DNA from: Ewingella americana ATCC 33852
Lineage (GTDB): Bacteria; Pseudomonadota; Gammaproteobacteria; Enterobacterales; Enterobacteriaceae
Assembly: GCF_000735345.1 (NCBI RefSeq)
Contig: NZ_JMPJ01000053.1
Coordinates: 1 to 64,000 of the forward strand
Direction of reading: 5' to 3'
Length of the DNA stretch: 64,000 bases
In this document: in pieces, positions 18,757-51,657 of the stretch
Position numbering within the stretch: the stretch's first letter is position 1
Layout: every line of letters begins with the position of its first letter
The notes under the pieces: generated by a model
Database searches by the model: none
Seen by the model: the letters and a program-made list of their open reading frames with translations, nothing else
Told to the model about the DNA's origin: nothing
Position numbers and translations under genes: made by a program

Positions 18757-19054
18757 AAACGCTCTACTGTTTAAAGCGCCGCGGCCCGCGGCGTTCGTCA
18801 TCCACCGCTGCCAGCCGCTGTTCGTGGTCGAGCCTCGCCCCAAGAACGCTTTGCAGTGGCTAAGACTCGCCGGACGCCGCGTCGCCCAAAGCTTCCGGCT
18901 GATGGTTGGCGTGCAGGATTACGGCAATTACGTGGCGCATTTTCGGGTGCGGCACCCAAGAGGCACCCCGCTGTCAGAACGTGAGTTTCATCGCAGATGT
19001 CTGGAGGCGAGATTCCCGAGCGAAGGTGGGAAGATGGGGAAATGCCCATGTTAG
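18749..19054 (+). CDS. YbdD/YjiX-family small protein partner of CstA
   Basis: 101 residues. The C-terminal 65 (ALQWLRLAGRRVAQSFRLMV... to the end) match the short YbdD/YjiX family (DUF466-type), including GVQDYGNYVAHFRVRHP and a final cysteine pair (CPC here, CC in E. coli). E. coli cstA and btsT are each followed by such a gene, so a role in transporter assembly or function is inferred. The first 33 residues are an extension not present in E. coli YbdD. The ATG at 18749 overlaps the cstA end by eight bases and has a GGGAGG site. Confidence 0.85.
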   Translation: MSENALLFKAPRPAAFVIHRCQPLFVVEPRPKNALQWLRLAGRRVAQSFRLMVGVQDYGNYVAHFRVRHPRGTPLSEREFHRRCLEARFPSEGGKMGKCPC

Positions 19055-19063
19055 GGGCAGGTG

Positions 19064-19086
19064 GGTGAACTGCTGTTCACCTTTTA
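19064..19086 (+). terminator. Hairpin after cstA-ybdD, likely terminator
   Basis: GGTGAAC (19064-19070) pairs perfectly with GTTCACC (19075-19081) around a 4-base loop, followed by TTTT. The T-tract is short, so termination may be partial. Confidence 0.6.
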
Positions 19087-19091
19087 TAGGT

Positions 19092-19740
19092 CACGGTTGT
19101 GGGCTGCCGCCACACCGGCCTTAAGGTCAAAACCGTGGGCTCGCCGCCCACACTGGCCCAAAGGGTTTTAAACGAAACCCTTTGGAATCCTGCGTTTTTT
19201 TGCTGCTGAAAGATCGAGGCTGCGCAGGGTTGGAATGGACATGTTCCAGCGGCCATTGTGTTCGTCGCGAAGTGCCGCCGCTTAGGCGGTTCCCTCGCGG
19301 CGGGATTACAACCCGCGCAAACTAACGCGCGGTTTTCCACCTCTTGCTCGGCGTCACTTCTGAACGCGACTTACTGGCATCTATACCGTGCCGTTTCAGT
19401 GGATTTTTTTTCTGCTCCTCTCCTGAATAGCAGAGAAGCAAAGCAAAATCACTGAAACGGCACGGCTGAGATGCCTCAAAACCGCAGTCAAAAATGGCGC
19501 TGAGCGAACGGTTCGAGACCTATGGCTCGAAGCCTGAAGCGAAGGCACCGCCTAAGCGGCGACATTTTGCGGTGAATAACGGAAGCCCCTGAAACACGTC
19601 CATCCAGCGAGCGGAGCGCGCAGTAAAGAGCCGGGGATTCTTAAGGGGCGCGGCGATAGGCGCCCCTTAAGGCCGGTGTGGCGGCAGCGCACGACCTTGA
19701 CCTTTGGGTCAGTGTGGGCGGCGAGCCCACGGTTTTGAAT
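19092..19740. repeat. 640-base foldback: two divergent copies of a ~310-base repeat, head to head
   Basis: The whole stretch is a nested imperfect palindrome. Exact inverted pairs are 19103-19126 with 19665-19688 (24/24), 19129-19154 with 19711-19736 (26/26), 19277-19290 with 19547-19560 (14/14) and 19386-19401 with 19450-19465 (16/16); the spacers between them also align. The two outermost modules are permuted, so the arms are two copies of a mosaic element rather than a plain inverted repeat. Each arm carries an 11-bp hairpin at the same place but of different sequence: 19158-19168/19175-19185 and 19640-19650/19661-19671. No convincing gene is present. Short open frames share only the peptide PPKRRHFA. 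Confidence 0.85.
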
Positions 19741-19783
19741 TTGAATTTGAATTTAAAAAGCGCCCCCGGGCAGCAGCCCCTAC

Positions 19784-20782
19784 TTACTTAATTCTCGCCA
19801 TTTGGTCATCCAAATTCACTTTCCCCTTGATGGCTTTGTTCTTCACTCTGCGCGACCACATCGCGGTAATAATCGGTACCAGAATCGAGGTCACGATGAC
19901 TGAGGTGGCGACCAGCGCGGTGGCTGCTGGGGCGGCGGCTTTGAACTGGGGGACCATCTCGGCGATTAACACGGGGGTGGCGACTGCGGCACCAGCGGAG
20001 CTGGATGCAGCGATGCCTGCGGTGCCGTCACCGCCGCCGATAAACTTGTCGGCCAGAATCAGTGGGATGCCGGTGACGATAATGACCGCGATACCCAGCG
20101 CAATACCCAACAGGCCGGTTTGAGCAATCACCGCCAGATTGATGGTATTACCCAAGGCGAAGGCGAAGAATGGGATCAGCGTCTGCACGGCTTTGCCGAA
20201 GAACTCGCGCAGTTCAGGGTCGAGGTTACCCAGCGCGAAGCCAATCAGGAAAGGGAGTACCGCGCCGACGAACACATGAGGCTCGAAAGAGGCGATACCG
20301 GCGGTGCCGAGGATGATCATGGTCATCAACGGGCCGGATTCCAGAGACATCAGCACGAACGCGCCCGCCTCTTCTTTGGTGCCGTATTGCTGCATCACCG
20401 AGGCGTACAGGCCGCCATTGGTCATATCCATCGACGCCACTAAGGCCAGTGTCGAAAGCCCGGCGAAGAAGCCGAACTCGACGCCGTTCTCCGGAATGAA
20501 GTGCGACGCCAGCGCAGCGACCACCCATGCCACGGCGATTTTAGTGACCACCAGCGTGCCGGATTTACGCAGCACGGTGCCGGTGGCGCTCAGCTTGATT
20601 GACGCGCCCATACAGAAGAACCATACCGCCAGAATCGGCACGGTGCCGGAAATCAATCCGTTGGTGAATGACCCGAAATATTTACCTGCATCCGGCGCAA
20701 AGGTGTGACAAAGCGCACCGAGAAACAGCGGCACCAGCATCATTCCACCGGGAATTTTTTCAATAGCACGTTTGATTTGCAT
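19784..20782 (-). CDS. kdgT: 2-keto-3-deoxygluconate permease KdgT
   Basis: A 332-residue inner-membrane proton symporter that takes up 2-keto-3-deoxygluconate, an intermediate of pectin and hexuronate breakdown. Length and sequence fit the KdgT family: [20 protein letters not shown] at the start, [12 protein letters not shown] in the middle, and a glycine/alanine-rich segment [21 protein letters not shown]. About ten hydrophobic segments can be traced. It is a single-gene unit with a KdgR-type operator upstream. The foldback repeat lies just past its end. Confidence 0.93.
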
Positions 20783-51484: not shown

Positions 51485-51550
51485 ATGATGAATATTTTAA
51501 TGATTTCTGTACTCAGCTGGTGGCGCCACTTCCCTTCGCGGGCGGTGTGA
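51485..51550 (+). CDS. trpL: trp operon leader peptide TrpL
   Basis: A 21-residue leader (MMNILMISVLSWWRHFPSRA-V) with two adjacent tryptophan codons (TGGTGG, 51518-51523) that sense charged tRNA-Trp. It is preceded by CAAGG. The second ATG at 51488 is an alternative start. Ribosome stalling at the Trp codons controls the attenuator hairpin downstream. Confidence 0.93.
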   Translation: MMNILMISVLSWWRHFPSRAV

Positions 51551-51587
51551 TCACGCATTTCGGTTTACAGACCATGCAGATACCCGA

Positions 51588-51612
51588 AGCCCGCTGAATG
51601 CGGGCTTTTTTA
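51588..51612 (+). terminator. trp attenuator
   Basis: AGCCCGC-TGAAT-GCGGGCT followed by T6: the 3:4 terminator hairpin of the trp leader, 37 bases past the trpL stop and 46 before trpE. GCGGGC in the leader peptide region (51538-51543) and the intervening sequence supply the competing pairings. Confidence 0.92.
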
Positions 51613-51657
51613 TGGCCGTCTTCTTCACCATTTGGTAGAAAAATTTTAGGAACTATC

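Follow-up and report, generated by a model that had tools for sequence, protein, structure and literature searches.

A dispersed foldback repeat family of the Ewingella/Rahnella group: conserved pairing, bias towards dif and concerted evolution

An intergenic foldback of Ewingella americana ATCC 33852 represents a single copy from an ancient family of non-coding repeats that occurs in the Ewingella/Rahnella group. It lies in the window, i.e. the whole stretch of 64,000 nucleotides which was analyzed. In the halves of the family, paired substitutions preserve a three-way junction together with outer hairpins; copies gather around dif in a sister species, and the insides of dispersed copies evolve in concert. 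Tentatively, we favor an ancient structural repeat that would be overwritten by homologous recombination and may act, and be retained, as folded DNA at the terminus. In the following, G000 denotes the window's own genome, G001 a sister species, and G002 and G004 other congeners.

A preliminary description of this DNA had reported two divergent repeat copies facing each other at 19092–19740. The foldback was confirmed. The element is strongly folded and surpassed all 20 dinucleotide shuffles both as DNA (z −13.2) and as RNA (z −18.2); its two halves derive from a single unit and have diverged. The location was correct but the limits were slightly narrow: the element spans ~19088–19760 (~650 bases), with the right edge pushed to ~19757 by a continuing hexamer tract. 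Inverted blocks were found at 19088–19126/19665–19703 (39 nt, 92%), 19127–19164/19701–19738 (38 nt, 97%), 19261–19307/19530–19576 (47 nt, 77%) and, around the centre, 19339–19411/19440–19512 (73 nt, 71%). Exact inverted blocks of 14–26 bases had been described; by eye, the longest exact runs are ~28, 20, 16 and 14 nt, which is near that range. The parts of the element and its left border are:

19064–19085, plus strand: terminator-like hairpin with T run, belonging to the ybdD-like gene and lying just beyond the element border (GGTGAAC-TGCT-GTTCACC-TTTT, read from the sequence)
19088–19126, plus strand: outer hairpin module A (inverted-repeat search; A/B-type word count in G001)
19127–19164, plus strand: outer hairpin module B, at which one end of the G001 inversion lies (inverted-repeat search, locus comparison)
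19158–19185, minus strand: second hairpin of the L half, CCAAAGGG...CCCTTTGG (sequence; other halves show alternative stem sequences)
19262–19373, minus strand: core of the L half, forming a three-way junction (R1 covariance model, 97.0 bits; pair counts)
19386–19401, plus strand: left inner inverted arm, CCGTGCCGTTTCAGTG (sequence; within the 73-nt central inverted block)
19450–19465, plus strand: right inner inverted arm, CACTGAAACGGCACGG (sequence; within the 73-nt central inverted block)
19478–19575, plus strand: core of the R half, forming a three-way junction (R1 covariance model, 89.5 bits; pair counts)
19640–19671, plus strand: second hairpin of the R half (inverted repeat, 12 bp, 100% complementary)
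19665–19703, minus strand: inverted module A' (inverted-repeat search)
19701–19738, minus strand: inverted module B', the other inversion end point (inverted-repeat search, locus comparison)
19734–19757, plus strand: hexamer tract, (TTTGAA)n, which closes the right end and is longer in G001 (direct-repeat search, locus comparison)

Hexamer and heptamer tracts at element ends differ in copy number across species and copies (window 19734–19757, L052, L313).

Pfam assigned the left neighbor to PF04328 (ybdD-like) and the right neighbor to PF03812 (KdgT), as had been proposed. The hairpin at 19064–19085 was not listed by a consensus terminator scan. As it provides the left gene with a terminator-like structure of its own outside the element, a terminator function of the element is not favored at this site. 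Terminator-like sites did not exceed the shuffles (1 vs a mean of 1.7), and promoter-like sites were absent from 18950–19850. The earlier view that it encodes nothing convincing held: two internal ORFs had no Pfam match at E ≤ 0.01. A coding remnant was rejected on this basis, and identity to a decayed known gene was likewise not encountered. Rfam 15 at gathering scores returned nothing in the element; the sole match in the whole window was the tryptophan operon leader RF00513 (Trp_leader) at 51512–51613 (69.9 bits). Sub-threshold Rfam matches were miRNA precursor models only, and membership in a known structured RNA family was dismissed. A phage or E. coli origin was rejected for lack of any sequence match.

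Copies are numerous. The element DNA had at least 160 matches in G000 (40 of 85 candidates scored) and at least 179 in G001, which merged to at least 40 chromosomal loci, a lower bound resting on 40 of 54 scored candidates. The G000 loci include contig ends such that one site may count as two loci. Many G000 contigs stop within a copy (e.g. C43:1, C51:1, C56:3, C44:1), and the family seems to break assemblies. A dispersed element, one of several possibilities in the preliminary description, was thus borne out; neither single-copy occurrence nor a lack of relatives in other genomes was encountered. In a genome contig collection a looser family pattern had at least 106 matches, 103 of these with a half by profile, and the strict pattern ACCGCCTAAGCGGCGNCAYTTYGCGGYGAA had none. 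Hosts among the matches listed were Rahnella species, E. americana E4, Hafnia psychrotolerans and two further Enterobacterales genomes; matches in one uncultured-bacterium and one Sumerlaeota record were without any half by profile. The family pattern was present in 14 of 14 genomes of group g44, presumably Rahnella judging from matching hit coordinates, and in six of 13 genomes of a second set, i.e. in all six of the window's genus and in none of the seven others. The reversed pattern was found in none of these 27 genomes. Partial matches were also noted in ten Rahnella plasmids of ~0.5–0.6 Mb (e.g. the megaplasmid CP032297.1, 444840–445365); copies are therefore not confined to chromosomes.

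The covariance model R1, which represents the half core and was built on 41 halves, matched four of 119 genomes of the taxonomic family under strict filters: G000, G003, G247 and, distantly, G415. The latter, from a further genus, had six matches (best E 6.4e-6). At one G415 locus two halves are again head to head, adjoined by an AACTTC tract (read from the sequence). In G415 (C1 1,921,129–1,922,016) three diverged core matches lie on one strand ~390–405 bases apart, unlike the dimers in other places. An order-wide blastn search had matches in eight of 295 genomes at E ≤ 0.001 (two candidates scored per genome). Long matches came from the window's own genome, G003 and G247; the other five genomes had one match of 23–41 bases each (E ~4e-4 to 8e-4), which we take as chance.

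Most copies are head-to-head dimers of a half-unit of ~280 bp. The half-unit profile had 526 matches across the collected loci. When matches scoring 100 bits or more were grouped within 300 bases, 232 clusters resulted: 161 head-to-head pairs, five triples (minus-plus-plus) and 66 single halves; in this count H. psychrotolerans and E. americana E4 loci enter twice, and five duplicate G001 loci and unassigned ones were dropped. The centre between paired halves had a median of 35 bases (n = 161). Tandem or tail-to-tail pairs were absent among the 232 clusters. A satellite remnant, also suggested previously, does not agree with this: copies are dispersed, and only the five triples end in two same-direction halves. 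Many single halves of G000 sit at contig ends; in G001, single halves make up 12 of 41 clusters and are inside the chromosome, two of them bracketing a gene at L096. Thus, the dimer is not obligatory. L-L instead of L-R dimers were seen at L009, L026, L058 and L061. Hairpin modules (A, B and variants) flank the halves on the outside, and in many copies an AAATTC-like hexamer tract lies beyond the halves. In 480 kb of G001 all 31 A/B-type module words were within 400 bp of a half. Halves and hairpin modules mix between copies, resulting in a mosaic. Genes were observed between two half-units at L096 (1412–2121), L077 (167–839) and L080 (325–1583), and halves may bracket genes. As clues to an autonomous parent these were discarded: judged by eye from translations, the P-loop kinase-like ORF of L096/L077 and the XRE-like and GNAT-like ORFs of L080 look like ordinary cell genes.

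The fold of the half-unit was examined in an alignment of 41 of 290 halves, picked to be less than 80% identical to one another. A structure-free scan of all column pairs yielded 22 pairs, 13 of which belong to a single three-way junction (one stem, its inner stem and a hairpin). The 19 junction pairs were paired in 97.4% of cells and showed both-side changes in 109 cells compared with 25 ± 5 after shuffling and at most 19 with partners slid, values somewhat favored because the structure was derived from the alignment on which it was scored. Further pair types in the junction were less striking (28 vs 24.3 in shuffles; reached by 21 of 500). RNAalifold added two outer hairpins, with compensatory changes in 22 of 32 pairs. 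The preliminary description had considered a structured RNA or DNA, and paired substitutions do preserve the junction. In the core both mispairs are rare (G-T 10 and A-C 4 of 770 cells). From general experience, an RNA helix of such age is expected to carry more G-U than that. The scarcity of G-T in the core hints, without proving it, that pairing takes place in DNA or that template switching corrects the stems. When all 32 RNAalifold pairs are counted, G-T is more frequent than A-C (139 vs 26). For the outer hairpins this agrees better with RNA than with DNA. Quasipalindrome correction can likewise produce paired changes in the absence of selection, and this counts against our preferred reading.

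Where do the copies reside? Among 60 copies (40 of G001, 20 of G002) 42 lie between convergent, 15 between co-directional and three between divergent genes, as called by a simple longest-ORF rule. A second junction table contradicts this, with four of 15 occupied junctions convergent; we think that there the gene caller took ORFs inside the elements as genes. In G001, with dif at 2,094,456, all 40 loci had a median distance to dif of 536 kb compared to 1,166 kb expected (KS p = 2e-7), and 15 loci were within 200 kb of dif (3.4 expected). A 240-kb stretch around dif contained 15 loci, with 47 junctions called as convergent, and twelve 20-kb control stretches contained no locus, with 42 such junctions; as all stretches were chosen after the map was known, 15 vs 0 illustrates rather than tests the bias. 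By these numbers, convergent junctions in themselves are no more frequent close to dif. A bias to dif was also seen with 20 exact-pattern copies on three g44 chromosomes (pooled 5e-5; one-sided KS 0.003 for G321 with 13 copies, 0.063 for G314 with four, 0.050 for G323 with three), which were picked from 14 genomes for a chromosome mostly in one contig, G313 (in pieces) and G318 being left out. In G002, five of 20 exact-pattern copies are on the 311-kb contig bearing dif. In G004, only one of 22 is on the 253-kb dif contig, and this counts against our preferred reading. By replichore, the L-to-R orientation in G001 was 16 plus/9 minus before dif and 6 plus/9 minus after it (a hand count).

Sites of known terminus systems were searched as words. 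Nine sites with the matS consensus were found in 240 kb around dif of G001 (C1 1,925,000–2,164,999, L286–L297) and none in the 240 kb of controls. This group thus probably possesses the MatP system. Inside 77 elements there was neither matS (0 vs 0 in shuffles) nor Chi (0 vs 1.5); IHF words numbered 1 (0.5 in shuffles) and KOPS words 11 (8.9 in shuffles). The matS, Chi and IHF counts speak against our preferred reading. In a gyrase map of E. coli, Ter is reported to have too few gyrase cleavage sites (PMC6379681); a role as a gyrase sink is therefore not favored.

The sites are mostly old. At 33 of 40 G000 loci a long flank is shared with a copy-bearing G001 locus, at 13 both flanks, although some of the 33 are two ends of one site. 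Fifteen of 20 G002 loci have a flank in common with G000 or G001 (flanks 72–88% identical). When six shared sites were aligned by eye, edges agreed well at A, E and F; at B and C they agreed within G002/G004, and between species pairs only partly at B, C and D. Across the deeper split re-insertion at the same junction may have occurred. Elements are absent at some sites. At the window site G002 lacks the element, which G003 and G004 carry, and has TTTAAATTCAA-TACA-TTGATTTTAAAT which, by eye, resembles two element ends joined. At the L050 site near dif, G002, G003 and G004 are without the element and show a plain short hairpin instead (by eye). Thus loss or absence happens, and this speaks against our preferred reading. 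The flanks of the L055 site (G001 C1 ~3,001,771) are on different contigs in G002, G003 and G004, perhaps a rearrangement breakpoint.

As to mobility, copies share one trait with MITEs: many end in terminal inverted repeats, i.e. the inverted hairpin modules and AAATTC-like tracts. By eye, no target-site duplication was evident at two sites with empty relatives. ORFs at three loci with genes between or beside halves included no transposase. The RAYT domain PF01797 was not found in G000, G001 and G321 and matched once in G004. Because three of these four genomes lack it, mobilisation of the RAYT/REP type was rejected, and RAYT-driven movement is unlikely. With sites mostly shared between species in addition, mobility of the non-autonomous element considered in the preliminary description is not borne out by these data.

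Inside the copies a different history is apparent. When 290 halves were compared, none of 124 halves from G000 and G001 had its nearest relative in G002, G004 or Rahnella; halves with fewer than 170 core letters were dropped, the Rahnella halves may include overlapping loci, and the contrast may be sharpened by sampling since G000 and G001 copies were collected by likeness to the window element and most of G002 and G004 by an exact 25-base pattern. Even within the close pair, only 14 of 43 G000 halves at shared sites best matched the same-site half in G001, and at sites spanned on both sides it was 10 of 24 (hand count). At the L003/L050 site G000 and G001 have matching outer modules but different cores, which favors conversion in place. 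Gene conversion between dispersed copies would most simply account for the concerted evolution of the insides. At the window site itself both halves match those of G001 (L031) at 98.6% and 99.0%, but inverted; the flanks are 92–94% identical, lower than inside. The inverted 38-nt B modules are the switch points, and recombination between them probably generated the inversion. The inverted state may also be due to mis-assembly of the 92-contig G000. The preliminary description had concluded from permuted outer modules that the element was assembled from modules and not by inversion. Modules indeed mix between copies; the order here, however, follows simple inversion. As exactly that segment is reversed in L031, the permutation is at least partly due to inversion between the two 38-nt modules.

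How can these data be explained? In the reading we tentatively prefer, copies would overwrite one another by homologous recombination or gene conversion between dispersed loci, and the inverted modules would let the interior flip. The folded form would be used as DNA: hairpins or cruciforms may be extruded at places where converging transcription and replication bring their supercoils together. In this way the element could serve the terminus region as a topological or insulating site and would be retained for it. Idle DNA is usually lost by bacteria, yet these elements of ~0.6 kb persist at many shared sites, keep a paired structure, concentrate where replication ends and have their insides rewritten in concert. 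Nearly as likely as a functional element is a selfish or neutral remnant whose copies are kept alike by conversion. In that case, a MITE/REP-like repeat, once or rarely still mobile, would have inserted beside terminators and survived where harmless, without a function for the cell; likeness would be due to gene conversion or re-insertion, self-complementarity to template-switch (quasipalindrome) mutation. We consider this serious, if short of an even chance. Insertion at convergent 3' ends does the least harm, and two halves with mosaic modules, ongoing replacement of the insides, empty sites and the apparently joined ends in G002 are in line with it, as is the location of YPAL/RU-2 targets across or next to dyad symmetry (PMC2229807). 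Sharing of sites across species despite diverged flanks, the absence of a transposase partner at the loci inspected and of tandem or tail-to-tail dimers argue against it, and clustering at dif requires an extra cause.

A dedicated terminus-domain element, whose paired three-way-junction arms would extrude between convergent genes around dif and organise topology, replication-transcription encounters or segregation, appears rather unlikely. We doubt still more that the half-units work as RNA, i.e. that run-out transcripts of convergent genes fold there, stopping transcription or protecting 3' ends. The position at gene 3' ends, the stability of the RNA fold, the G-T excess over all predicted pairs and the plain hairpin in the three element-free species at L050 are consistent with such a role. 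On the other hand, the core stems are nearly all Watson-Crick, the left gene at the window site has its own hairpin, terminator-like sites are not above shuffles, Rfam provided only miRNA precursors below threshold, and clustering at dif is left unexplained. A phase-variable switch operated by a site-specific recombinase at the B modules is very improbable: the segment between them is inverted between G000 and G001, but among 14 halves with a same-site best match in G001 only the window's two are inverted, a promoter-like site is missing, and ordinary recombination between inverted repeats suffices. The family allows a direct test of intergenic repeats as selfish leftovers vs chromosome architecture, and each genome offers dozens of natural loci at which bacterial gene conversion and mutation driven by hairpins can be measured.

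Finally, the family was compared with known systems. Literature searches, covering an open collection and judged mostly on titles and abstract openings, yielded no account of such a repeat in Rahnella or Ewingella and none of a dif-clustered repeat of this kind. E. coli carries ERIC, and the window element had no blastn match at E ≤ 1e-5 in 5,426 E. coli genomes; identity with ERIC/IRU was thus excluded by sequence. REP hairpins of 20–40 bp are tagged GTAG or CGTC, are dispersed alone and have a cognate RAYT (Y1 transposase). In contrast, modules A and B are without a GTAG or CGTC tag by sequence reading, and in the 480 kb of G001 their words never occurred away from a core. matS sites of the Ter macrodomain accumulate in the 240 kb around dif in which the element is also concentrated; they are 13-bp protein-binding sites, and the 77 elements contain none. 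BIME/REP of Enterobacteriaceae are, like the element, intergenic mosaics of short hairpins; unlike these the present family has ~280-bp halves, head-to-head dimers and a three-way junction core and clusters at dif in G001. BIME-2 contain gyrase cleavage sites (PMC6379681). According to PMC2229807, ERIC/IRU/RU-1 (127 bp) is an enterobacterial intergenic palindromic repeat as well, of different size. The same paper presents YPAL/RU-2 of Yersinia (~168 bp) which, compared by description only, is 3–4 times shorter and is reported to show recent mobility with target duplications (PMC2229807). Similar to the element it is enterobacterial, intergenic, palindromic, not A+T-rich and located at or beside dyad symmetry, its targets spanning or adjoining such symmetry (PMC2229807). 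By analogy, the element would work in kind like BIMEs and YPAL, i.e. as an intergenic hairpin mosaic.
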